Below are positions 41,812 through 53,809 of a stretch of 64,000 nucleotides of DNA, piece after piece; the stretch's first letter is position 1, and every line of letters starts with the position of its first letter. Made by a program: the position numbers and the translations under genes. The notes beneath the pieces were generated by a model that saw nothing but the letters and a program-made list of their open reading frames with translations, ran no database searches and was not told where the DNA came from. This DNA is from Rubrivivax gelatinosus (lineage in GTDB: Bacteria; Pseudomonadota; Gammaproteobacteria; Burkholderiales; Burkholderiaceae_C). The stretch is from positions 1 to 64,000 of the forward strand of contig NZ_SLXD01000015.1 in the NCBI RefSeq assembly GCF_004340905.1. Reading direction: 5' to 3'.

Positions 41812-42132
41812 ATGGGGTTTTCAGCCAGCGACATGCTGCCGTTCACCCAGGCACACGCCAACCTGTCCGAACTGGCCGACCCGGCCGGGGCCGTCGCCGA
41901 GATGGCCGTCACCAGGAACGGCGAGGGCTCCGTGGCCCTCCTCGACGCGACGCGGCTGGGCCGCCATCGCCCGTTTCATCAGCACCGCGCGACCGCCGCC
42001 GAGGCGTCCTGCCGCAAGATTGCTTGGGCCCGCATGCCCGCCTCTGTTCCTCGTTGGCCTGAACCGACGAATCAACTGGAAGACGACATCACATGCGACA
42101 TCCGACCAAGACCGACAGCCTGGTTCGCCTGA
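41812..42132 (+). pseudogene. Phd/YefM-type antitoxin remnant
   Basis: The first 48 or so codons (MGFSASDMLPFTQAHANLSE, then VTRNGEGSVALLDATRL) match the dimerising N-terminal domain of a Phd/YefM antitoxin family that I recall. After that point the usual helix (such as DYYHRLERE) is replaced by GRHRPFHQHR and unrelated sequence to the stop, which overlaps the FkbM gene in another frame. No toxin gene follows. The toxin-binding half is therefore lost or replaced and the gene is probably inactive. It is the only recognisable element in the 430 bp between the tRNA terminator and the FkbM gene. Confidence 0.5.
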
Positions 42133-42779
42133 AGTCCCTCGGGCTCCCCATCGGGGCCATCCTCGACATCGGCGTGCTGAGCGCCACCCCCGAACTGATC
42201 GCGGCCTTCTCCGACCACCAGCACCTGTTGGTGGAGCCCATCGTCGAGTGGAACCCGGCCATCGCGACCCACTACGCCGGCGTGGACCACGAGGTGGTCA
42301 ATGCCGCCGCCTCCGACGCCGAGGGCAGCGTCACCCTGGAGGTTCAGTCCGTGATCCCCGGGACGCCGATCTCCCACGCGCGAATGGCCGACCAGATCCG
42401 GGCCGGCTGCGTGGCCCGGGAAGTCCCGATGGTCACAGTCGACAGTCTCGTCGCTCAGAGAAACCTGCCGGAGCCTTTCCTGCTCAAGATCGACGTCGAT
42501 GGGGCGGAGGTGCGCATCCTGCGTGGTGCGCGTCGAACCCTGCCCAGATGCAGCGTCGTGATCATCGAGGCGGGAGTGCTGAACTTCTGGGAGCGTGCCG
42601 AGCCGCTGCGCGACGCCGGTTTCGAACTCTTCGACCTCGTGGGCCTCGCCTACTACGATGGCCGGCTCTGCCAGTTCGACGCCGTCTTCGTCAACAGCGG
42701 AATGATGCGCGACCACCGGCTGGGGATGTTCGAGCAACCCTTCGACTTCACCAAGTGGGTCAACTACGACCCGCGTTGA
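42093..42779 (+). CDS. FkbM-family SAM-dependent methyltransferase
   Basis: A 228-residue protein with the Rossmann-like FkbM fold. Segments are ILDIGVLSATPELI, LLVEPIVEWNPA, AASDAEGSVTLEV, VTVDSLVAQ and the family signature FLLKIDVDGAEVRILRGA. Such enzymes O-methylate sugars or other hydroxylated molecules, often in glycan or natural-product gene sets. Here it stands alone in a small islet downstream of tRNA-Asn, beside an antitoxin remnant. The substrate is unknown and there is no glycosyltransferase neighbour. Confidence 0.85.
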   Translation: MRHPTKTDSLVRLKSLGLPIGAILDIGVLSATPELIAAFSDHQHLLVEPIVEWNPAIATHYAGVDHEVVNAAASDAEGSVTLEVQSVIPGTPISHARMADQIRAGCVAREVPMVTVDSLVAQRNLPEPFLLKIDVDGAEVRILRGARRTLPRCSVVIIEAGVLNFWERAEPLRDAGFELFDLVGLAYYDGRLCQFDAVFVNSGMMRDHRLGMFEQPFDFTKWVNYDPR

Positions 42780-42886
42780 GCCCCTGTTGAACGGTTGTTC
42801 CGAGACCGCGGCGGGGCGTGTCCCGCCACCCTTCGCGCCCTCGGGCCGGTCCGGCGCGTGGCGGGTCCGGCCGGCGAGAGCGCAGA

Positions 42887-43492
42887 TCAGGAGGCTCCCG
42901 CCCCCCGCGCGCGATCGCTCAACCGCCGCAACAGCTCCAGCCCGTAGGTCCACGGCCCGAAGCCCGACTCGACGTTGATGTGCCCGGCCTCGCCCAGGTC
43001 GACGAGTTCGCTGCCCCAGGTGCGCGCCCAGTGCTCGGCGCGGCGCAGGCTCATGAAGGGGTCGCTGTGGCTGGCGACGAGCACGCTGGGCACCGGCAGC
43101 GCCCCGGCCGGCACGCGCTCCTCGGCCTCGAACCTGGCCGGCTCGGCCGGCGCCACCAGCATCAGGCCAGCGACACGCGCCGGGTGGTCGGCCGCCATGC
43201 AGCACGAGGCCAGCGCGCCCAGGCTGTGGCCGACGAGGATCGCGCGGCGCTCGCTGCGCGCCGTCAGCCGGCCGATCGCGCCGACCCAGCGGTCGACGTC
43301 GGGGTCCTGCCAGTTCTGCAAGGTGATGCGCCGCCAGATCGGCAGGCAGCGCTCCCAGCACGACTGCCAGTGCTCGGGCCCGGAGTCGTAGCGCCCGGGC
43401 ACGAGCACGAACTCGAACTCGCGTGCGGCTTCCTGCAGCGCGGCCGAGGTGTCCGGGCAGGCCCGGGCGTCCATCATCGACTGCCAGCTCAT
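42887..43492 (-). CDS. small alpha/beta-hydrolase (RBBP9/YdeN family), last gene of the citrate cluster
   Basis: A 201-residue serine hydrolase. The nucleophile is Ser90 in VGHSLGAL, the acid Asp144 in ASHSDPFMS, and the base His171 in AGHINVESGFGPW, all typical of the RBBP9/YdeN family. It begins 19 bp after citB on the same strand and so is probably part of the citrate lyase gene set. R. gelatinosus has a known citrate lyase deacetylase that removes the acetyl group from the prosthetic arm when citrate runs out. A serine hydrolase in this place is a candidate, by position only. A general esterase is the alternative. Confidence 0.85.
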   Translation of the reverse strand: MSWQSMMDARACPDTSAALQEAAREFEFVLVPGRYDSGPEHWQSCWERCLPIWRRITLQNWQDPDVDRWVGAIGRLTARSERRAILVGHSLGALASCCMAADHPARVAGLMLVAPAEPARFEAEERVPAGALPVPSVLVASHSDPFMSLRRAEHWARTWGSELVDLGEAGHINVESGFGPWTYGLELLRRLSDRARGAGAS

Positions 43493-43511
43493 GGCCGCGC
43501 CGCCGCCTCGT

Positions 43512-44216
43512 TCATTCGCCCTCTTGCGCCGCCGGCCGCAGCAGCCGGTAGCTGCGCTCCGGGCGCCCCACCTTGCCGTAGCTGATCTGCGCGGCGACGA
43601 AACGTGTCTCCACCAGGTACTCCAGGTAGCGCCGGGCGGTGGTCTTGCTGATGCCCACCGCGCGCGCGATGGTGTCGGCGGTCTCCTCGCAGTGTTCGTC
43701 GAGGAAGTGGTCCTTCAGCCGCGACAGCGTCAGCTGGTCGATGCCCTTGGTGCGCCGCTCCTCCAGCGCCGCCTTGGACTGCAGGTTGTAGAGCTCGTCG
43801 ACCCGGCGCTGATCGACGAGCCGGTGCGCCGCCTGCGAGTCCAGGAACTGGCAGAAGCGCTCCAGCGCGGCGTTCAGCCGGTCGTAGGCGATGGGTTTGA
43901 TGATGTAGTCGAAGGCCCCCAGCCGGATCGCCTTGCTGCAGGTCTCCATCTCGCTGGCCGCGGTGATGAAGATGACGTGCGCATCGATCTTCTGCGTCAC
44001 CAGGTGCTCGAGCAGGTCGATGCCCTTGCCGTCGGGCAGGTAGTTGTCCAGCAGGATCAGGCGCGGCTGCAGGCTCTCCAGCAGCCGGCGGGCCTCGGCC
44101 ATCGTCGTGGCGGTGCCCGCGGCGCGCAGCCGAGGGTGCTGGCCGATGAAGTCGGCGTGCAGCCGCGCCTGGCGCGCTTCGTCCTCGACGATCAAGACGT
44201 CATGCTTCGGCAGCAC
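43512..44216 (-). CDS. citB: citrate two-component response regulator (CitB/DcuR family)
   Basis: A 234-residue regulator. The receiver domain has the acidic pair EDE (11-13), phosphoacceptor Asp57 in ILLDNYLPDG, and Lys in DYIIKPI. The C-terminal DNA-binding domain (GIDQLTLSRLKDHF, then ADTIARAVGISKTTARRYLEYLV) is typical of the CitB class. The start overlaps the end of citA by 17 bases. In enterobacteria CitB activates citrate fermentation genes when CitA senses external citrate under anoxia; the placement here supports the same role. Confidence 0.94.
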   Translation of the reverse strand: MLPKHDVLIVEDEARQARLHADFIGQHPRLRAAGTATTMAEARRLLESLQPRLILLDNYLPDGKGIDLLEHLVTQKIDAHVIFITAASEMETCSKAIRLGAFDYIIKPIAYDRLNAALERFCQFLDSQAAHRLVDQRRVDELYNLQSKAALEERRTKGIDQLTLSRLKDHFLDEHCEETADTIARAVGISKTTARRYLEYLVETRFVAAQISYGKVGRPERSYRLLRPAAQEGE

Positions 44217-45909
44217 GTGCGGCTCCTTTGGGGATGAACAGCGAGAAGATGGTGCCGCGCGGCTCGTTCTCTTCGATGGTGATCGTACCGCCCGCCTGCT
44301 CGACGTAGGTCTTCACCAGGTGCAGGCCGATGCCGTGCTCGCCGCCGGGCTTGCTGCTCACGCCCAGGTCGAACAGCGTCTCGCGCACGCTGGCGTGCAC
44401 GCCGGCGCCGCTGTCGGCGACCTCGATGACGATCTCGTCGTCGGACTCGATCATCAGGAAGGACACGCGCTGCCCGGGCTCGCCGAGCGCCAGCGCGGCG
44501 TCGAAGGCGTTGTCCAGCAGGTTGCCGATGATCGACAGCCACTCCGAGACCTTCAGCGTCTCGGGCAGGCTGGTCAGCCGGCAGCCGGGGTCGAACACGA
44601 GTTCCAGCCCCAGCTCGCGCGCGCGGTAGTACTTGCCCAGCAGCATGCCGCACACCGGGGCGTTGAAGAAGGCCTGCGAGATCGTGTCGAGCACACGCTG
44701 CTGGGTGCGCGACTGCATGCGCGCGAGCTGCAGCGCCTCGTCGTAGTGCTTCATCTCCAGCAGGCCGGAGATCGTCGACAGCCAGTTCATGTGCTCGTGG
44801 CGCACGACGCGCAGGTTGTCGGCGTGGCGCCGCACCTGCGACAGCTGCAGGCTGAGCGTGGAGATGTCGTCCTTGCGCCGGAAGCTGAGCACCGCGCCCA
44901 CCGGCTTGCCGGCGACGACGATGGGCAGCCGGTTGGCGATGACCTGCACGTTGTTGAACAGCAGCACCGCGTCGCGGATCTCCGGCGGCGAGTCGGCACC
45001 CTCGCCGATGCCGCTGGGCGCGCCGCTGCCGACGACGTCGGAAAGCCGGCAGCCGATGATCTCGTGGCTGGGCCGCGTGTCGCCGACGATGTCGCGTGCG
45101 GCGTGGTTGATGGCGCGCACCCGGTCGTGGCGGTCGACGGCGATGACGCCTTCCATGATGGAGTCGAACACCGCCTCCTGCTGGCGCACCAGGCGCGAGA
45201 TCTCCGCCGGCTCCATGCCCAGCATCTGGCGCTTGATGCTGCGGGCGAAGAACCAGGCGCTGAGGAAGGTGGCGCCCAGCGCGACGGTGAGGAAGACGAC
45301 GACCGGGCCGCGCTGCGCGACGTCGCGGTCGAAGATGACGTCCTGCAGATAGCTCACCGAGACGACGCCGATGATGTGCTCGTCGTCGTCCTTGATCGGC
45401 GCCTTGCCGCGCAGGCCGTGGCCCAGCGAGCCGGTGCGCACCGTCACCTCGCTCACGCCGTCGTGCAGCACCGGCGTGTTGTCGTCGCCGACCATCGGCG
45501 TGCCCGGCGGCAGCATCGGGTGGTACAGCCGCCGCCCCTCGGAGTCGCCGATGACGATGAAGCTGGCGTCGGTGCGCTGCTTCATGGCCTTGGCGATGCG
45601 TTCGATGACCGGCAGGTCGCGCACCTTCACGGCCTCGACCAGTTGCGGGATCGCGGCGATCTGCTGCGCCTGCACGACGGCATGCTGGCCGAGCTGCTCG
45701 TACAGCGTGTCGTGCATGCGCTCGAAGACGTAGTAGCCGACGACGAGCAGCAGCGAGGACGAGACGCACAGCAGCAGCAGGAACAGCCGCACCTGGAAGG
45801 TCGCCATGCGCGCCAGGCGCTCGGCGAAGCCGGCGGCCAGCCGCCGGGCCGCGGGTCTCGGGCCGGGCGCCGGCGTGTCGTCGGCAAGTCGGGGATGCAC
45901 GCCGTCCAT
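44200..45909 (-). CDS. citA: citrate sensor histidine kinase (CitA/DcuS family)
   Basis: A 569-residue membrane kinase. Helix 1 (about 40-62) and helix 2 (about 202-222) enclose a periplasmic PAS-like (PDC) domain of about 140 residues with the ASFIVIGDSEGRRLYHP core. A cytoplasmic PAS follows (VFDSIMEGVIAVDRHDRVRA), then the dimerisation helix with His371 in RHEHMNWLSTISG, and an HATPase with NLLDNAFDAA, DSGAGV and GGEHGIGLHLV. AGGAG precedes the ATG. It follows citG and overlaps citB by 17 bases. Citrate as ligand is inferred from the gene set. Confidence 0.94.
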   Translation of the reverse strand: MDGVHPRLADDTPAPGPRPAARRLAAGFAERLARMATFQVRLFLLLLCVSSSLLLVVGYYVFERMHDTLYEQLGQHAVVQAQQIAAIPQLVEAVKVRDLPVIERIAKAMKQRTDASFIVIGDSEGRRLYHPMLPPGTPMVGDDNTPVLHDGVSEVTVRTGSLGHGLRGKAPIKDDDEHIIGVVSVSYLQDVIFDRDVAQRGPVVVFLTVALGATFLSAWFFARSIKRQMLGMEPAEISRLVRQQEAVFDSIMEGVIAVDRHDRVRAINHAARDIVGDTRPSHEIIGCRLSDVVGSGAPSGIGEGADSPPEIRDAVLLFNNVQVIANRLPIVVAGKPVGAVLSFRRKDDISTLSLQLSQVRRHADNLRVVRHEHMNWLSTISGLLEMKHYDEALQLARMQSRTQQRVLDTISQAFFNAPVCGMLLGKYYRARELGLELVFDPGCRLTSLPETLKVSEWLSIIGNLLDNAFDAALALGEPGQRVSFLMIESDDEIVIEVADSGAGVHASVRETLFDLGVSSKPGGEHGIGLHLVKTYVEQAGGTITIEENEPRGTIFSLFIPKGAARAAEA

Positions 45910-45995
45910 GCGTCGTCTCCTGGCGGGGGGCCGTCAGCGGCTGCGGCGCGTGCGCCGGTTCGTCGGGGCTCTGGGCTTGCCGGGCGGACGTCGGC

Positions 45996-47003
45996 TCATG
46001 GCGGGCACGCGGCGAGCGGCTCGGGCTTCGCGGCGCGACGGTGCGCGACGGGGAGCCCGGTCCGACCGCACTCTTCCGGTTGGGGATCGAAGCGGGACAG
46101 GAACCACGTCACGGCCAGCAGGTCGGCACTGCCGCCCGGGCTGATGTGGCGCCGGATCATCTCGCGGTCGAGACGGCTCATCTCGGCCAGGTGGTCCGGA
46201 GCGTCGACTCCGCCGGCCGCGAGCAGGGCCCGCGCGCGCGTCTGGACGAACTGCAGGGCCGAGATCCCGCCGCGCGCCACGAGATTCGTGTCCTGATTGT
46301 AGGCGAGCAGGTTCAGCAGCACGGCGTGCAGCGCCCCCTCCTCGCCGTGGCCGGCGGCGCGCGCGCGGCGCCAGGCCGGCAGCCCGTGGCGGCGCACGGT
46401 GGCGAAGCCGCTGGCGGCCTCGCCGCGCGCGCCGGGCAGGCCGTGCTCGCGGTACAGGCGCTCGCCGGCGGTGGCCGCCGGCCCGCCGTCGCGCAACTCG
46501 CGCGCCACCAGGCCGTCGCAGATCGCCGCCACCTCCAGGCACAGCCCGTCGGCATCGGCGGCCACGCCGCGCCCGGCCAGGCGGCCGGCCGCGGCGCACA
46601 GCAGACCGAGCGCGAAGACGCTGCCCTTGTGGGTGTTGACGCCGCCGGTGGCGCGCAACATCGCCCGCTCGCAGGCCTGGCCCTGCGGCCGCAGCCGCGG
46701 CAGGAACTCGACCGCCGGCCGCTCGCATTCGCTGCGCCCGAAGCGGAAGAAGACGCCGAGCCAGGGCTCGATCGCCGCGGCGCTGGCGCGGAACATGGCG
46801 AGGTCCATGTCGTCGTGCGCGCCGTTGTTGAAGCGGTCGACGAGACCCGGCTTGGGGCTCAGCTCGACCTCGCGGATCAGGGCCTCGTGGCCCCAGCCGG
46901 CGACGCGGCGGGTGTCCAGGATCGCAGGCCGGCGCGCGGCGGCCGCCGGCGCACACGCGCTCCCCCCTGCCGCGGGCGCGACGAAATCAGCAAACGGCCG
47001 CAT
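45996..47003 (-). CDS. citG: triphosphoribosyl-dephospho-CoA synthase
   Basis: A 335-residue enzyme that makes the precursor of the citrate lyase prosthetic group from ATP and dephospho-CoA. Family motifs are ELSPKPGLVDRFNNGAHDDM, ATGGVNTHKGSVFALG and the C-terminal HISPGGSADLLAVTWFL. A tail of about 25 residues rich in Arg and Pro follows the domain. The ATG chosen overlaps the citX stop region by 17 bases; a longer reading lies within citX. Its product is used by CitX to modify CitD. Confidence 0.93.
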   Translation of the reverse strand: MRPFADFVAPAAGGSACAPAAAARRPAILDTRRVAGWGHEALIREVELSPKPGLVDRFNNGAHDDMDLAMFRASAAAIEPWLGVFFRFGRSECERPAVEFLPRLRPQGQACERAMLRATGGVNTHKGSVFALGLLCAAAGRLAGRGVAADADGLCLEVAAICDGLVARELRDGGPAATAGERLYREHGLPGARGEAASGFATVRRHGLPAWRRARAAGHGEEGALHAVLLNLLAYNQDTNLVARGGISALQFVQTRARALLAAGGVDAPDHLAEMSRLDREMIRRHISPGGSADLLAVTWFLSRFDPQPEECGRTGLPVAHRRAAKPEPLAACPP

Positions 47004-47529
47004 GGCGATGGTTCTCCAAGAGGCGGGCGATCGCCGCCTGCAGTTGTTCGAGCGGGTGCGCACGCGAGCGCGCGCAGGCGTGGGCCGCCTCGTCGCAGAC
47101 CAGGCAGCGCCGCGGCGCCAGGCCCAGCGCGGTGCGCGACAGCGAGCGCCCGTCCAGGCCCAGCACGTCCAGGTCCCACAGACGGCCCAGCGCGTGCGTG
47201 TCCTCGAGCGCCACCGCGGCGCGCTTGAGCTGCACGGCGTCGGCGTCGATCGCCAGCAGCGCCTCGCAGCCGGTGACCTGCCGCCAGGCGCGGCAGGCGG
47301 CGACGCGCCAGCCGCGCTCGCGGCACAGCGCCTCCAGCCGCGCCAGCGCGACGCAGAACACCTCGCGCAGCGCGGCGCTGTCCTTCACCGGGCCGGGCGC
47401 CACCAGCGTCAGCGACAGCAGCGGCAGCCCGTGGGCCGCCAGCGCCGCCTGCTGGCTGCGCACGCGCTCCTCGCGCGCCGCCAGCATCTGCTCCAGCGTC
47501 ACCGGCACGGGCGTGTGGCTGCCGTCCAT
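46987..47529 (-). CDS. citX: apo-citrate lyase phosphoribosyl-dephospho-CoA transferase
   Basis: A 180-residue transferase that attaches the CitG product to the acyl carrier CitD. Recognisable are the N-terminal VTLEQMLAAREERVRSQQAA, the nucleotide-binding motif GRLWDLDVLG shared with MdcG-type enzymes, and the C-terminal RRCLVCDEAAHACARSRAHP segment. It lies 10 bp after citF and overlaps citG by 17 bases, an order usual in citrate lyase operons. Confidence 0.93.
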   Translation of the reverse strand: MDGSHTPVPVTLEQMLAAREERVRSQQAALAAHGLPLLSLTLVAPGPVKDSAALREVFCVALARLEALCRERGWRVAACRAWRQVTGCEALLAIDADAVQLKRAAVALEDTHALGRLWDLDVLGLDGRSLSRTALGLAPRRCLVCDEAAHACARSRAHPLEQLQAAIARLLENHRHAAVC

Positions 47530-47539
47530 ACGCCCTCCC

Positions 47540-49060
47540 TCAGGGCTTGACCTGGCGCACGACGTCGATCACCGAGCCGTCGCGGTAGCGCACGACGCCG
47601 ACGATCTTGTCGAGGAACTCGATGGCCTGCGGTTCGCCGGTCAGCGCGACCGAGCGCGCATGCAGCTCCTCGATGCCCATCACCGGCAGGCCGGCGGCGC
47701 GCAGGCGCTCGGCGACGTCGGGGCGGTTGGGGTTCACCGCGATGCCGTGGTCGGTGACCAGCACGCCGATGCACTCGCCCGGCGTGACGACGGTCGTCAC
47801 GCGGCGCACGATGGTCGGGATGCGGCTGCGGATCAGCGGCGCGACGACGATCGCCAGATTGGCCGCCGCGGCGACGTCGCTGTGGCCGCCGGAGGCGCCG
47901 CGCATCACGCCGTCGGAGCCGGTGATGACGTTGACGTTGAAGTCCAGGTCGATCTCCAGCGCCGACAGGATGACCAGGTCGACGCGGTCGCAGAACGTGC
48001 CCTTGGAGCTCGGGTTGGCGTACTCGTTGGTCGAGACCTCGACGTGCTCGGGCGAGCTGCGCAGCGACTCGGCGGCGTCGGCATCGAAGCTCTGCGTGTC
48101 GACCAGCTTGGTGATCAGGCCCTTGCGGTGCAGGTCGACGATGCCGCCGGTGATGCCGCCCAGCGCGAACGCGGCCTTGATGCCGGCCTTGCGCATGCGC
48201 GGCTCGAGGAAACGCGTGGCCGCGGTCGACGACGCGCCCGAGCCGGTCTGCAGCGAGAAGCCGTCGCGGAAGTAGCCCGAGTGCTCCATCACGTCGGCGG
48301 CCCAGCGCGCGATCAGCAGCTCGCGCGGGTTGCTCGTCACGCGCGCCGCGCCGACGCTGATCTTCGACGGGTCGCCGACCTGGGCGACCTTGACGATGCA
48401 GTCGACCTGGTCCTGCGAGATGCTCGCCGGCGTGTTGGGGAAGTCGACGAAGTCCTCGGTCAGCAGCACGACGTGGCGCGCGAACTGCGCATCGACCTTG
48501 GCATAGCCCAGCGAGCCGCAGCGCGACTTGCCGCTGACGCCGTTGGCGTTGCCGAACTCGTCGCAGGCCGAGACGCCGAGGAAGGCGACGTCGATCTTCA
48601 GCTCGCCGCTCTTGATCAGGTGCACGCGCCCGCCGTGCGAGTGGATGTGCACCGGGTGTTCCATCAGCCCGTTGGAGATCGCCTCGGCGAGCTTGCCGCG
48701 CATGCCCGAGGTGTAGATGCGGCTGATGACGCCGTTGCGGATGTGCTCGATCAGCGGTGCGTTGCAGCTCAGCAGCGACGACGAGGCCAGCGTCAGCTTG
48801 CGCAGGCCCATGTCGGCCAGCACCTGGACGACGTGGTTGATCGTCTTGTCCCCCTCGCGGAACGCGTGGTGGAAGGAGATCGTCATGCCGTCCGTCAGGC
48901 CGACGCGGCGCACGGCCTCTTCCAGCGAGGCGGCGATCTTGCGCGAGAGCTTGGCCTGCGGGTCGCGCAGGTGCGGGGTGTGGTGCGCGTAGTCCTGGAA
49001 GGCTTCGAGCCCGCGCAGCGCCGGCTCGTGGCGCAGGACGTCTTGCAATGTCGTGTTCAT
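47540..49060 (-). CDS. citF: citrate lyase alpha subunit (citrate:acetyl-ACP transferase)
   Basis: A 506-residue subunit that exchanges acetyl for citryl on the prosthetic group of CitD. It carries clear CitF segments: GMTISFHHAFREGDKTINHV, SGMRGKLAEAISNGLM, DEFGNANGVSGKSRCGSLGY, FSLQTGSGASSTAATRFL and GASGGHSDVAAAANLAIV. The length is normal. The ATG at 49060 sits 20 bp downstream of citE; a very long upstream reading of the same frame is an artefact crossing citE and citD. Confidence 0.97.
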   Translation of the reverse strand: MNTTLQDVLRHEPALRGLEAFQDYAHHTPHLRDPQAKLSRKIAASLEEAVRRVGLTDGMTISFHHAFREGDKTINHVVQVLADMGLRKLTLASSSLLSCNAPLIEHIRNGVISRIYTSGMRGKLAEAISNGLMEHPVHIHSHGGRVHLIKSGELKIDVAFLGVSACDEFGNANGVSGKSRCGSLGYAKVDAQFARHVVLLTEDFVDFPNTPASISQDQVDCIVKVAQVGDPSKISVGAARVTSNPRELLIARWAADVMEHSGYFRDGFSLQTGSGASSTAATRFLEPRMRKAGIKAAFALGGITGGIVDLHRKGLITKLVDTQSFDADAAESLRSSPEHVEVSTNEYANPSSKGTFCDRVDLVILSALEIDLDFNVNVITGSDGVMRGASGGHSDVAAAANLAIVVAPLIRSRIPTIVRRVTTVVTPGECIGVLVTDHGIAVNPNRPDVAERLRAAGLPVMGIEELHARSVALTGEPQAIEFLDKIVGVVRYRDGSVIDVVRQVKP

Positions 49061-49080
49061 GGAAGGAACTCCGGAGGGGG

Positions 49081-49953
49081 TCACTTGCGCACGCCCGAGG
49101 CCTGGGCGCGTTGCAGCACCCGGCGGGCGTGGTTGACGATGGGCGCGTCGATCATCTTTCCGTTGAGCGAGACGACGCCCAGGCCTTCGCGCTCGGCCTT
49201 GTCGGCGGCGGCGATGACACGCTGCGCGTGCTCGACGTCCTCTTCGGTCGGCGCGTAGGCGTTGTGCAGCAGCTCGATCTGGCGCGGGTTGATCAGCGAC
49301 TTGCCGTTGAAGCCCAGCTTGCGGATCAGCTCGACCTCGCGCAGGAAGCCGGCCTCGTCGTTGACGTCGGAATAGACGACGTCGAAGGCGTCGATGCCGG
49401 CCACGCGCGCGGCGTGCAGCACCGCGCAGCGGGCATAGAACAGCTCGGTGCCGTCGCCGCGCTCGGTCTGCATGTCCATCACGTAGTCGAAGCCGGCCAG
49501 CGCGATGCCGACCAGGCGCTTGCTCGCGGTGGCGATGGCCAGCGCGTTGACGACGCCCGAGGCGGACTCGATGGCGGCCATCAGCCGCGTGGAGCCGACT
49601 TCGCGGCCGCATTCGCGCTCGATGCGTTCGACCTGGGCCTCCAGCTCGTGCACGTCGGCGGCGCTGTCGGTCTTGGGCAGGCGCACGATGTCGACGCCGG
49701 CACGCACCACGGCTTCCAGGTCGGCCAGGCCGAAGGGCGTGGACAGCGGGTTGATGCGCACCACGGTCTCGATGTCGGCGTAGGCCGGGTTCTGCAGCGC
49801 ATGGAAGACCAGCAGCCGCGCGGCGTCCTTCTCGCGCAGCGAGACCGCGTCCTCCAGGTCGAACATGATCGAGTCGGGCTTGTAGACGAACGCGGTGCTC
49901 AGCATCGCGGCGTTGGCCCCGGGCAGGAACAGCATGCTTCGGCGCAGTGTCAT
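49081..49953 (-). CDS. citE: citrate lyase beta subunit (citryl-ACP lyase)
   Basis: A 290-residue TIM-barrel lyase splitting citryl-ACP into oxaloacetate and acetyl-ACP. Signatures are [31 protein letters not shown], the acidic metal ligands in [14 protein letters not shown] and DYVMDMQ, and the catalytic [11 protein letters not shown] region. Its start overlaps the citD stop by ATGA. Standard length for CitE. Confidence 0.96.
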
Positions 49954-50246
49954 GACAGTCGGCTCCAGTCGATCTGCACTTGCCCGGCGCCGCGCAGCAC
50001 GGCGGTCTGAACGCGGGCACGAATGGCGCAGTCCAGCGCCCCCTTGTCCTCGACGACGACGAGGCCGGCCGTCACGCCCAGGCGCTCCAGCGTCTCGGCG
50101 ATGACACGGCGGATCTGGGCGCCGAACTGGCGCATCACTTCGCTCTCGATGACCAGCTCCAGGCGCCCGTCGGCGGCTGGAGCGACCTTGACCAGCAGGT
50201 CGCTGGATTCCAGCGTCCCTGCCAGGGCTTCCTTGACGATTTGCAT
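49950..50246 (-). CDS. citD: citrate lyase acyl carrier protein (gamma subunit)
   Basis: A 98-residue acyl carrier. Ser14 in GTLESSD is the residue that carries the phosphoribosyl-dephospho-CoA arm. The remainder ([40 protein letters not shown]) is typical CitD. The ATG follows a GAGAGG-like ribosome site. The stop overlaps citE by ATGA. The acetyl group on this arm determines the active state of the enzyme and is the target of the deacetylase described biochemically in this species. Confidence 0.95.
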
Positions 50247-50307
50247 CGTTGAACCTCTCGTGGTGGGCCGGCCCGCGGGCCGGCCCGTGAATGCACGGCG
50301 TGCCGTG

Positions 50308-51363
50308 CTAGGCACTGACTTCTCCCCGCTCGCGCCGGAACGCGGGGGCGTACTTGTCGTTGAGCAGCTGCAGCGTGTCCGGCGGCACCAGCGACGCGAT
50401 GCGGCCCGGATGGCCGGCGCGCAGCAGCCGCCGCACCTCGGACGCCGAGATCGGCACGCCTTCGCAGGACGTGCGCGGAATCTCGACGACGGCCACCGGC
50501 GGCGCCGCCGAAGGCGCCTGCTGCAGCCAGTACTGCATGTCGGCGTTGTATTTGCGGGTGGTCGCGCAGAAGGGCTCGGTGCCGACGAAGCGGTGCGTCA
50601 CGCCCAGCGCCGGCGCGATGTAGTCGCGGAACAGCAGCAGGTCGATCGCGGTGCAGCAGTCGCCGACGATGCCCTTCTCCTTGAAGAAGTAGTCGGGAAA
50701 GCTGGCGCGCGAGACCATGTATTCAGAGCCGTGGTGCAGCGTCAGCCGCGGGATCGCGCTCACGCCCTTGTGCACCAGCGCGAAGCGGTCGCGGTAGGAG
50801 AACTGCGAGACGTCCTCGCGCACGACGAACAGGTGCAGCCAGTCGCATTGCGCCGCGGCCAGCCGCACCAGGTACTCGTGGCCACGCGTGAACGGGTTGG
50901 CGTTCATCACGACGCAGCCGATGCGCCGGCCCGAGCGGCGCTCGGTGGCCAGGCGGCGGCAGTAGCCGCTGATGCCCACCGGCGTGTTCTCCATCAGGCT
51001 GACGTGGCCCGGCACCTCGGCCAGCGCGTGGAAGCCGCAGCCGGCGAAGAACTCGACATTGCGCGGCCGCGTGTAGAGGAACAGGTGCAGGTGGCCGCGT
51101 TCGAGCGCCAGGTGCACGATCTCGCTCATCAGCGTCAGCGACAGCGAGCTGCCGCGAAAGTCGGGCGCCGTCGCCACGCACTTGACGATGTTGTGGTCCA
51201 GCCCGGCGCAGGCGACCAGCCGGCGGCCGTGGCGGCCGACGACGAAGGTCTCGATGCCGTCCTCGATGTCCAGCTCGCACTGCGCCAGCAGTTCGCGCAC
51301 CTCGGCACGCTCCTGCGGCGCCTCGCGCGGGTCGATGGCGTAAAACTCGATGTCGTCGCTCAC
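50308..51363 (-). CDS. citC: [citrate (pro-3S)-lyase] ligase
   Basis: About 351 residues from a GTG start. It activates citrate lyase by acetylating the CitD prosthetic thiol with ATP and acetate. An N-terminal GNAT-like domain (VACAGLDHNIVKCVATAPDF, then GSSLSLTLMSEIVHLA) is followed by a nucleotidyltransferase domain with NANPFTRGHEYLV. The C-terminal part holds ISASEVRRLLRAG. GGAG lies eight bases before this GTG; a GTG ten codons upstream is possible but worse spaced. It lies between the FAH-fold gene and citD on the same strand. Confidence 0.94.
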   Translation of the reverse strand: MSDDIEFYAIDPREAPQERAEVRELLAQCELDIEDGIETFVVGRHGRRLVACAGLDHNIVKCVATAPDFRGSSLSLTLMSEIVHLALERGHLHLFLYTRPRNVEFFAGCGFHALAEVPGHVSLMENTPVGISGYCRRLATERRSGRRIGCVVMNANPFTRGHEYLVRLAAAQCDWLHLFVVREDVSQFSYRDRFALVHKGVSAIPRLTLHHGSEYMVSRASFPDYFFKEKGIVGDCCTAIDLLLFRDYIAPALGVTHRFVGTEPFCATTRKYNADMQYWLQQAPSAAPPVAVVEIPRTSCEGVPISASEVRRLLRAGHPGRIASLVPPDTLQLLNDKYAPAFRRERGEVSA

Positions 51364-51452
51364 GATGGGCGCTCCGTCGGTGCGGACGGACACGGCGCTC
51401 CGGGGCGGGCCGCGCCGCGGCGGCCCCGGATGCCTTGTCGCATCCGCTCAGC

Positions 51453-52352
51453 TCATGCGGCGGCGGTTTCGGCGGCCTCGGGCAGCTCGTAGCCCTCGAA
51501 GGGTTCGAGCACCTCGTCGGCGATCACGTTGCAGAGCCGGCCGATGCCGGAGATCTCCACCTCGATCGTGTCGCCGGCCTTCATGAACAGCGGCGGCACG
51601 CGCTTCTTGCCGACGCCCCCGGGCGAGCCGGTGATGATCACGTCGCCGGGCGACAGCGCGCTGAAGGTGCTGATGTATTCGATCAGCGCGGCCACCGGGT
51701 GGATCATGTTGGCCGTCGAGTCGTCCTGCACCTGCTGGCCGTTGAGGAAGGTGCGCAGCTGCAGCTGCTGCGGGTCGGGCAGCTCGTCGCTGGTCACCAT
51801 CCACGGGCCGAAGGCCCCGGTCTCGCGCCAGTTCTTGCCGGCGGTGAACCAGGTGTGCTGCCAGTCGCGCGCCGAGCCATCCATGTAGCAGGCGTAGCCG
51901 GCCACGTGCAGCAGCGCGTCCTCGCGCCGGATGCCGCGGCCGCCGGTGCCGATGATCACGGCGAGCTCGCCCTCGTAGTCGAACTCGCGGCTGTGAGCCG
52001 GCTTGATGACCGGGCAGCGGTGGCCGGTCTGCGAGTCGGGGAAACGCACGAACAGCGTCGGCGCCGGATTCGTCTCGTTGAACTCCTGGCGCTTGGCCGC
52101 GTAGTTCATGCCGACGCAGAAGATCTTGTTCGGGTGCTCGATGACGGGCAGGAAGCTCACTTCGTCTTCCTGGTAGTCAGGCGCGGCCGCCTCGTGGTGG
52201 CGGGCCAGCGCGACGCCGCCGGTCACGGCCAGCAGCGAGCGCAGGGAGGGGAAACGTTCGCCGAGGCGGCTGCCGAGGTCGACGATGCCGCGTTCGGTGC
52301 GGATGCCGTAGCTGCGCTTGCCGCGGCTGTTGCGGAAACTGAGCAGTTTCAT
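51453..52352 (-). CDS. FAH-fold hydrolase/decarboxylase in the citrate cluster (candidate oxaloacetate decarboxylase)
   Basis: A 299-residue FAH-superfamily protein. An N-terminal domain of about 80 residues precedes the catalytic core: IFCVGMNYAAKRQEFN, the metal-binding glutamates of FDYEGELAVIIG, aspartate in YACYMDGSARDWQ, then FTAGKNWRETGAFGPW and DVIITGSPGGVG. Members include fumarylacetoacetases, acylpyruvases and oxaloacetate decarboxylases (FAHD1-like). Its place between the citrate transporter and citC is unusual. Citrate lyase yields oxaloacetate, and no oadGAB sodium-pump genes are present, so decarboxylation of oxaloacetate to pyruvate is a reasonable hypothesis. A role in another keto-acid pathway is the alternative. 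Confidence 0.88.
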   Translation of the reverse strand: MKLLSFRNSRGKRSYGIRTERGIVDLGSRLGERFPSLRSLLAVTGGVALARHHEAAAPDYQEDEVSFLPVIEHPNKIFCVGMNYAAKRQEFNETNPAPTLFVRFPDSQTGHRCPVIKPAHSREFDYEGELAVIIGTGGRGIRREDALLHVAGYACYMDGSARDWQHTWFTAGKNWRETGAFGPWMVTSDELPDPQQLQLRTFLNGQQVQDDSTANMIHPVAALIEYISTFSALSPGDVIITGSPGGVGKKRVPPLFMKAGDTIEVEISGIGRLCNVIADEVLEPFEGYELPEAAETAAA

Positions 52353-52438
52353 GGGGTCCTCTTGGGGAGCTGGGGCGTCGGCGCTGCCGCGGCGGCAGGT
52401 CGCCGACGCCGTGGATAGGGAGATGCGGGACTCGGGAC

Positions 52439-53809
52439 TCAGGCCACCAGGCGCGACAGCACCAGCAGCGAGACGGTCACGTTGATCGCGCCGCCGATGC
52501 GGGTGGCGATCTGGGCGAAGGGCATCAGCTGCATGCGGTTGGACGCCGACAGGATGGCCACGTCGCCGGTGCCGCCCTGGCCGCACTGCGTGCAGGACAC
52601 GACGGCGGCGTCGACCGGGTACATGCCGAGCTTGCGCGAGACCAGGAAGCCGGTGCCGACGACGGTCAGCACGGTGGCGACGATGACGGCGATGTTGTCC
52701 AGCGCGAAGGCGGCGACCAGGCGCTCCCACGGCGTGATGGCGACACCGACGGCGAACAGCACCGGGTAGGTCACCGAGGTCTGGAAGAACTTGTAGACCG
52801 AGCGCGCACCTTCGGTCAGCGAAGGCGAGGCGGCCTGCGTCAGCTTGACGAGCACGGCGACGAACAGCATGCCCACCGGCGCCGGCAGCCCGATCACGCG
52901 GAAGCCCAGCATGCCGATCATGTACAGGCTGATGGCCATCAGCGCCGCGGCCGCCAGGCCGGTGACGTCGAGGCCCTTGCCGCCGGCCTCGCTCTTGGCC
53001 GCGAGCTCGTTCTCGTCGGCGGCGCCCGGCAGCAGCTTGCCGTTGCCGGTCAGGTGCGGGTGGCGGTTGCCGATCGCACCGAGCACGCCCGAGAGCATGA
53101 TCGCGACGACGTTGGCCATCATCACCATCGGGATGATCCGGCCGAACATCTCGCCCTGGTCCTGATGGAGGATCTCGGCGAAGCCGATGGACAGCGGGAT
53201 CGCGCCTTCGCCGACGCCGCCGGCCATGCACGGCAGGACGATGAAGAAGAAGGTCTCGTAGGCGCTCTTGCCGACGGCGACGCCGGCCAGCGTGCCCACC
53301 ACCATGCCGGCGACGGCGGCACAGCCCATCGGGATCACGATCTTCATGAAGCCCTGGATCAGCGTCTTGCGATCCATGCTCATGATGCTGCCGACGATGA
53401 CGCAGCAGATGTACAGATAGAGGATGCCGGTGGCCTTGTAGAACTTCGTCGTCGCCTCGACGACGATGTCCGGCAGCAGGCCGTAGTACACCAGCGCCGA
53501 CGGGATGAAGGTGGCGCAGATCGCGGCCGCCCCCATCTTGCCGATCACCGGGATGCGCTTGCCGATCTCACCGCAGGCGAAACCGAAGAAGGCGAGCGTC
53601 ACGGCCATCACCGTCAGCTCGTTCGTCAGGCCGCCCTTGGTATTGGCCAGGGCCAGCACCAGGGCGCCGGCCAGCACGAACAGCGGCAGCGGTATGACGC
53701 CGACCTTGGCCTCCATCAGGCGCCACCAGCCATGGGGCCAGAACTTCTGCCCGGCGGCAGCGGTGCCACCGGGCACGGCCTCCAGGGTTGCGGGGCTTGC
53801 TTCACTCAT
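52439..53809 (-). CDS. citS: 2-hydroxycarboxylate transporter family protein, probable citrate transporter (CitS-like)
   Basis: A 456-residue inner-membrane carrier of the 2HCT family (CitS, CitP, MleP). It has about eleven hydrophobic segments and the two family reentrant-loop motifs: CMAGGVGEGAIPLS in the first half and CTQCGQGGTGDVAIL in the second. In Klebsiella CitS imports citrate with sodium. The gene heads the enzyme genes here, so citrate is the likely substrate, although malate or another 2-hydroxycarboxylate is possible. GGAG precedes the ATG. The upstream 346 bp (53810-54155) contain inverted repeats but no convincing gene. Confidence 0.92.
   Translation of the reverse strand: MSEASPATLEAVPGGTAAAGQKFWPHGWWRLMEAKVGVIPLPLFVLAGALVLALANTKGGLTNELTVMAVTLAFFGFACGEIGKRIPVIGKMGAAAICATFIPSALVYYGLLPDIVVEATTKFYKATGILYLYICCVIVGSIMSMDRKTLIQGFMKIVIPMGCAAVAGMVVGTLAGVAVGKSAYETFFFIVLPCMAGGVGEGAIPLSIGFAEILHQDQGEMFGRIIPMVMMANVVAIMLSGVLGAIGNRHPHLTGNGKLLPGAADENELAAKSEAGGKGLDVTGLAAAALMAISLYMIGMLGFRVIGLPAPVGMLFVAVLVKLTQAASPSLTEGARSVYKFFQTSVTYPVLFAVGVAITPWERLVAAFALDNIAVIVATVLTVVGTGFLVSRKLGMYPVDAAVVSCTQCGQGGTGDVAILSASNRMQLMPFAQIATRIGGAINVTVSLLVLSRLVA

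Follow-up and report, generated by a model that had tools for sequence, protein, structure and literature searches.

The last gene of the citrate lyase (cit) cluster of Rubrivivax gelatinosus encodes a small serine hydrolase, hereafter HYD, which is a candidate for the citrate lyase deacetylase (EC 3.1.2.16), with a probability of roughly one half. That HYD has some dedicated role with citrate lyase seems close to certain, given its linkage to cit genes, in several arrangements, across alpha-, beta- and gammaproteobacteria, its co-occurrence with citF and the monophyly of the proteins concerned; the initial annotation, which had HYD serve citrate lyase, is well founded in this respect. The wider proposal, that the whole HYD clade supplies the missing citrate lyase deacetylases of these three classes, as a branch of PF06821 that has specialised on an acyl-carrier thioester, is put forward slightly more tentatively.

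Deacetylation of citrate lyase is among the classical examples of covalent control of an enzyme in bacteria, and the enzyme acting as the off-switch was described decades ago. It inactivates the lyase at citrate exhaustion and is reportedly inhibited by L-glutamate. We know of no gene and no sequence for EC 3.1.2.16, as the initial annotation had also stated, and the open-access literature agrees: among the matches listed, at the level of titles and the first parts of abstracts, none tied a gene to citrate lyase deacetylase and none linked an alpha/beta hydrolase to citrate clusters. According to a title in the reference list of one paper, the enzyme has been studied in R. gelatinosa and R. 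palustris (PMC11204750). HYD occurs in beta- and alphaproteobacteria, the classes of these two species. The deacetylase reading draws on chemistry, species and cluster position, on the known activity in both organisms, and on the presence of the only other gene of the cluster without a firm role in clusters that lack HYD.

In the window, i.e. the whole stretch of 64,000 nucleotides that was analysed, the HYD open reading frame (Table 1) begins with ATG and encodes 201 amino acids, with a computed mass of 22.2 kDa and a pI of 5.9. It is separated by 19 bp from the end of the citB open reading frame and ends the cluster on the same strand; beyond it lies an FkbM-type methyltransferase gene (42093-42779) on the opposite strand, in convergent orientation. 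A scan of positions 42700-46100 for promoters and terminators found none. The protein carries the motifs GHSLG at residues 88-92 (Ser90), SDPF (Asp144) and GHIN (His171), and the three catalytic residues are invariant in all 38 cit-type relatives and in all 24 other relatives aligned. The Pfam model PF06821 (Ser_hydrolase) matches HYD with an E-value of 3.6e-52 (177.2 bits, against a cut-off of 22), while none of the NCBIfam models exceeds its cut-off; the alpha/beta-hydrolase fold is seen in an AF2 model (pLDDT 92.6) that superposes on PDB entry 3bdv with an rmsd of 1.0. A copy with 87% identity directly follows citB in Rubrivivax gelatinosus IM 151 (locus L007), which, together with the PF06821 match, places the open reading frame beyond chance. 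The checks of reading frame, motifs and alignment therefore reproduce the 201-residue serine hydrolase with a Ser90-Asp144-His171 triad that had been described as ending the cluster 19 bp past citB. The host genome contains a second PF06821 gene (C13:110709-111224, 35% identical to HYD), which was considered as a partner of citrate lyase and rejected, as it falls outside the cit clade in both trees.

Table 1. Genes of the cit cluster in the window and the basis of their assignment
Gene	Product	Coordinates	Strand	Basis
HYD	PF06821 serine hydrolase	42887..43492	-	Pfam, triad, AF2 model
citB	response regulator (DpiA/CitB type)	43512..44216	-	Pfam Response_reg and HTH_64; best NCBIfam DpiA, below cut-off
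citA	sensor histidine kinase (DpiB/CitA type)	44200..45909	-	Pfam sCache_3_2 and HATPase_c; best NCBIfam DpiB, below cut-off
citG	triphosphoribosyl-dephospho-CoA synthase	45996..47063	-	TIGR03125 over cut-off; start uncertain, overlaps citX
citX	holo-ACP synthase of citrate lyase	46987..47529	-	TIGR03124 over cut-off
citF	citrate lyase alpha	47540..49060	-	PF04223, 767 bits
citE	citrate lyase beta	49081..49953	-	PF03328
citD	acyl carrier subunit, presumed substrate carrier	49950..50246	-	PF06857
citC	citrate lyase ligase (re-acetylating)	50308..51393	-	TIGR00124 over cut-off, PF08218
	FAH-family protein	51453..52352	-	PF01557; in cit clusters with and without HYD
2HCT	2-hydroxycarboxylate (citrate) transporter	52439..53809	-	PF03390

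The cluster is complete and runs in the order 2HCT, FAH-family gene, citC, citD, citE, citF, citX, citG, citA, citB and HYD. Genes with an assignment, together with the FAH-family gene, fill the stretch from 53809 to 42887, with no space for another unassigned gene. The FAH-family gene lies between the transporter gene and citC in most of the cit loci examined, whether or not these carry HYD, and was unmatched in the alphaproteobacterial loci L012-L014, L105 and L106. Proteins of the FAH family are decarboxylases or enzymes acting on C-C bonds, and this one is possibly an oxaloacetate decarboxylase. It was rejected as the deacetylase because it is present in clusters with and without HYD alike and because the chemistry of its family is a different one.

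Read as the deacetylase, HYD would serve a single kind of citrate lyase as its own serine thioesterase. The thioester that links acetyl to the phosphoribosyl-dephospho-CoA arm of CitD would be attacked by Ser90, giving an acetyl-enzyme in the oxyanion hole; His171 and Asp144 would then help water to free acetate and leave HS-citrate lyase, which would stay inactive until re-acetylated by CitC, the counterpart of HYD. By this route, HYD would stop the cell from splitting its own citrate once external citrate runs out, and inhibition by L-glutamate would be expected of it. The size of the protein may count against this reading, as the published mass of the R. gelatinosa deacetylase is reportedly near 14.3 kDa, against the 22.2 kDa computed for HYD. 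Such a mass would suit a different, smaller protein encoded elsewhere, for instance a hotdog thioesterase, with HYD having another role with citrate lyase. We regard this as rather unlikely, since no other unassigned gene fits within the cluster, the region examined in this respect. The estimates for the alternatives overlap, in that a separate deacetylase is compatible with either of the two other lyase-related roles considered below.

With regard to linkage, a search of genome contigs with HYD, by a method that detects close relatives only, returned 35 loci. Sixteen of them reach at least 48% identity, and 15 of these share their locus with citC, D, E, F, X and G, which in L011 occupy the opposite strand some kb from HYD; the sixteenth, Prodigiosinella L015, belongs to a genome with two citF genes elsewhere. 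In the other 19 loci, at 46% identity or less, citC, D, E and F are all missing, and citF is likewise missing from the respective genomes. The genome-level citF tally covers 34 of the 35 genomes, with L017 counted by its locus, which carries the cluster. Among plasmids, 287 records contained a match and only two reached 60% identity, both of them large Azospirillum plasmids with the order citC-D-E-F-X-G-HYD-2HCT; the match in strain B510 coincides in its coordinates with that in G1429 and is not independent of the Azospirillaceae survey described below. Two plasmid matches of lower identity that were inspected had no cit genes within 4 kb.

With the exception of L011, every linked locus measured has HYD on the strand of citG or citB and downstream of one of them. 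In the alpha- and gammaproteobacterial linked loci, citG is its direct neighbour, as in Azospirillum thermophilum, where HYD sits between citG and the 2HCT gene. The likely start of HYD overlaps the citG stop in an ATGA in four of the five Rahnella loci checked (L018, L019, L021 and L022), while L016 shows no such overlap at the assigned citG stop. This proximity would fit a protein that makes or recycles the prosthetic group, or whose substrate is some small molecule of citrate metabolism (an ester, a thioester or a lactone) instead of the lyase's acetyl arm. However, in the betaproteobacterial loci with citB, HYD follows citB, about 2.5 kb from citG. Moreover, citX and citG were both matched in 35 of 36 loci from genomes without HYD, so that the prosthetic group is apparently made without it, and to our knowledge no alpha/beta hydrolase acts on phosphodiesters of the kind involved. 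Although the genetic data fit it as well as they fit deacetylation, a role in prosthetic-group metabolism is considered improbable.

The distribution of HYD was compared with that of citF in samples centred on families, since an even sample of the class contained full-length citF in only two of 369 genomes, too few for a test; one of these two, G106, has no cit-type HYD. In the family of Rahnella, where cit-type was set at an identity of at least 47% and an E-value of at most 2e-51, citF was found in 119 of 295 genomes, and cit-type HYD in 24 of the 119 against none of the 176 without citF (Fisher 7.5e-11, relatedness ignored). Half of these 24 copies lie within a few kb of citF and the other 12 do not. 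HYD matches occur in 39 genomes of this family; the other 15 have weaker paralogues, and G1038 among them also has a truncated cit-type copy. In the Azospirillaceae, citF was present in 13 of 82 genomes, with cit-type HYD in 10 of the 13 and in none of the 69 others (Fisher 1.3e-10, relatedness ignored). In each of the ten genomes whose CitF scores 744-780 bits, an HYD with 60% identity or more lies at a distance of 1.5 to 1.7 kb from citF, while G1424, G1450 and G1484, whose CitF is divergent (535-541 bits), are without cit-type HYD. In the alphaproteobacterial family of Rhodoplanes, citF was found in four of 178 genomes, with HYD adjacent in three and no cit-type HYD in G1127. Finally, in the family of Uliginosibacterium three of 141 genomes have citF: G768 carries HYD (L010), and two genomes have divergent lyases and no cit-type HYD.

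The survey centres (G774, G771, G770 and G768) were chosen as genomes with HYD; without them, the counts among citF-bearing genomes become 23 of 118, 9 of 12, 2 of 3 and 0 of 2 for the families of Rahnella, Azospirillaceae, Rhodoplanes and Uliginosibacterium, respectively. Some genomes, such as G773, G774 and G775, enter more than one tally. A search of 45 genomes without citF (5 congeners and two sets of 20) gave no HYD match over 44% identity. L107 and L108 have a divergent citrate-lyase-like type (CitE 45%, CitF 573 bits), with no cit-type HYD.

Conversely, many citF-bearing genomes do without the protein. The 95 of 119 in the Rahnella family that lack cit-type HYD, together with the E. coli control, in which CitF is present and PF06821 is not, indicate that citrate lyase works without HYD, and with G1127 they count against the deacetylase reading.

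Phylogenetically, the cit-type HYD proteins form one clade (38 rows, support 100/97), which was upheld when a sister group was added (35 rows, support 99). Four residues set the clade apart, each present in 35 of 35 cit-type sequences: D36 (2 of 29 relatives), E117 (1 of 29), R75 (3 of 29) and W155 (3 of 29). The 38-row tree omits duplicates and longer stretches (L005, L006, L044, L061, L064 and L072-L089), the partial L040 and the fragment L071/L090, and L003 and L004 gave no HYD row; the 35-row tree additionally omits the near-copies L019, L026, L034, L041, L052, L053, L060, L062 and L069 and the frame-broken L097. It is very improbable that HYD rides on the cluster by chance, as a common PF06821 hydrolase whose function is unrelated. 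PF06821 is a broad family, and the second member in the host, at 35% identity, is not of the cit type. Nevertheless, chance would have to account for monophyly over three classes with different gene orders, for co-occurrence with citF even where the genes are unlinked, and for the gap seen in the Azospirillaceae, where cit-type proteins stand at 60% identity or more and the next best at 45%, with a generic member also present in six of the ten cit-type genomes.

The same linkage, co-occurrence and monophyly, as well as the invariant residues of the clade, would fit an editing thioesterase equally well. Type II thioesterases remove wrong acyl groups from the carriers of non-ribosomal peptide and polyketide synthases, and HYD might in the same manner strip wrong or stalled non-acetyl acyl groups from CitD and so keep the lyase active. 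The YdeN-like ML-005, one of the relatives, is an esterase that preferred C4 among its test esters (PMC6119806), which is in line with such a role and likewise with deacetylation. On the other hand, an extra activity is less economical where deacetylation occurs in this species without a known gene, and the Rahnella-family genomes with citF and without HYD manage in its absence. Editing is judged unlikely.

With regard to the lyase itself, a quick CitE tree of 81 rows, in which many forks are weakly supported and whose rows are the loci examined and not a random sample, contains a 22-row clade (support 95) drawn entirely from genomes with HYD, 17 linked and 5 unlinked; these five may reflect no more than the species tree. 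Linked HYD is absent from a 29-row group (89), which consists of 25 rows from genomes without HYD, the second clusters of G864 and G986, and G869 and G773, whose HYD is unlinked. The alpha- and betaproteobacterial CitE rows with HYD group together, along with one row without it, G1127. In G864 and G986, HYD lies beside one cit cluster, and the other cluster examined has a CitE of the lineage without linked HYD (a third citF match in G986 stands outside the comparison). Judged from these trees, HYD largely follows one CitE lineage. The CitE tree omits L001, L005, L092 and L093 and matches of less than 280 residues or 150 bits (e.g. L116).

In the preferred interpretation, HYD has been passed on together with a single kind of citrate lyase, which moved between classes. 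In the own family of the window, citF was found in one of 399 sampled genomes and in none of five congeners sampled, yet R. gelatinosus L007 has it, and the nearest CitE rows with a family name after L007 come from Rhodocyclaceae, Chitinibacteraceae and Zoogloeaceae. Taken together, these sequence comparisons make the cit cluster at 42887-53809 look imported. In a comparison of CitD from 32 lyases with HYD and 36 without, no site separated the two sets at the thresholds chosen; it omits L001, L005, L091-L093, L115, L116, L159 and L160, CitE below 70% identity and CitD matches of fewer than 85 residues. This lack of a partner signature in CitD counts against the deacetylase reading, as does the aminopeptidase activity of the best-studied relative, described below.

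Copies of HYD away from cit genes also count against the deacetylase reading. Among the 12 unlinked copies, that of G869 adjoins pieces of citG, and the other 11 have no cit genes within the 14-17 kb examined. These 11 group with the Pectobacteriaceae genus Prodigiosinella in the HYD tree. A DEAD-box helicase gene is adjacent in four of them (L072-L074 and L082); those of the others that were read differ in their neighbours, and the idea that all 11 share one spot was rejected for this reason. Read by eye, with L078 and L080 left out, the neighbours of L075, L076, L077, L079 and L081 are siderophore-type, iron-transport or outO-like (secretion) genes. In view of such neighbours, the function of the unlinked copies may differ or have shifted. 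In G1038, the one genome without citF in which a cit-type copy was seen, a truncated cit-type HYD (L090, 8781-9020) has Tyr in place of the catalytic His and adjoins the same kind of DEAD-box gene as its intact relatives; this copy seems to be a remnant left after loss of citrate lyase.

The sister group of HYD (L094-L096, L098, L102 and L103) shares 35-44% identity with it. Its members resemble the cit clade in having F121 (6 of 6), but they fall outside it, lack E117 and have D36 in only one of six. No citF was found in the genomes G1272, G1274, G1278, G1280 and G756, while G1372, the home of L102, has a divergent CitF. By eye, an ABC transporter ATPase gene of the ssu type is found near L096 and L098, L096 is also beside a peroxiredoxin gene, and L103 is near a cysE-like gene.

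If HYD is the deacetylase, EC 3.1.2.16 would gain a gene and PDB entry 3bdv a function, and PF06821 would have its first member known to us with a carrier-protein thioester as substrate. Citrate lyases would then divide into one lineage that has an enzymatic off-switch and others that lack this particular one, and it could be predicted which citrate users are able to shut off the lyase in this way. With strong genetic linkage, a simple assay and a crystal structure available for a close relative, the question is directly testable.

Among known systems, the enzyme described as EC 3.1.2.16 shares with HYD the species, in the case of R. gelatinosa, and, as far as genomic context predicts, the character of a thioesterase acting on citrate lyase; its reported mass, given above, would differ. 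The nearest solved structure, 3bdv, is ECA3091 of Pectobacterium atrosepticum (phmmer E 3e-60), which is 51% identical to HYD, has a TM of 0.88 to the AF2 model of HYD and is titled a putative 'YdeN-like hydrolase' (DUF1234), with no function assigned. By eye, and over the aligned stretch only, ECA3091 resembles L055 of G948, a member of the cit-type clade in a citF-bearing genome. Unlike HYD of Rubrivivax, this gene lies away from cit genes, beside a DEAD-box helicase gene. YdeN of B. subtilis (1uxo) and ML-005 are likewise YdeN-type alpha/beta hydrolases with a serine triad, the former with a TM of 0.68 but only 18% identity in the structural match, and we know of no link to citrate for either. 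Human RBBP9 (2qs9, 7oex; TM 0.61-0.62) belongs to the related alpha/beta hydrolases and likewise has a catalytic serine, though it is only 17-18% identical to HYD, and the profile alignment is weak at its Tyr99/Glu108 loop. This best-studied of the relatives seen is an aromatic aminopeptidase, whose pocket anchors the free alpha-amine of the substrate via Tyr99 and Glu108 (PMC8866121). Ester and amide chemistry are thus both represented among the relatives, and by analogy thioester chemistry is plausible for HYD.
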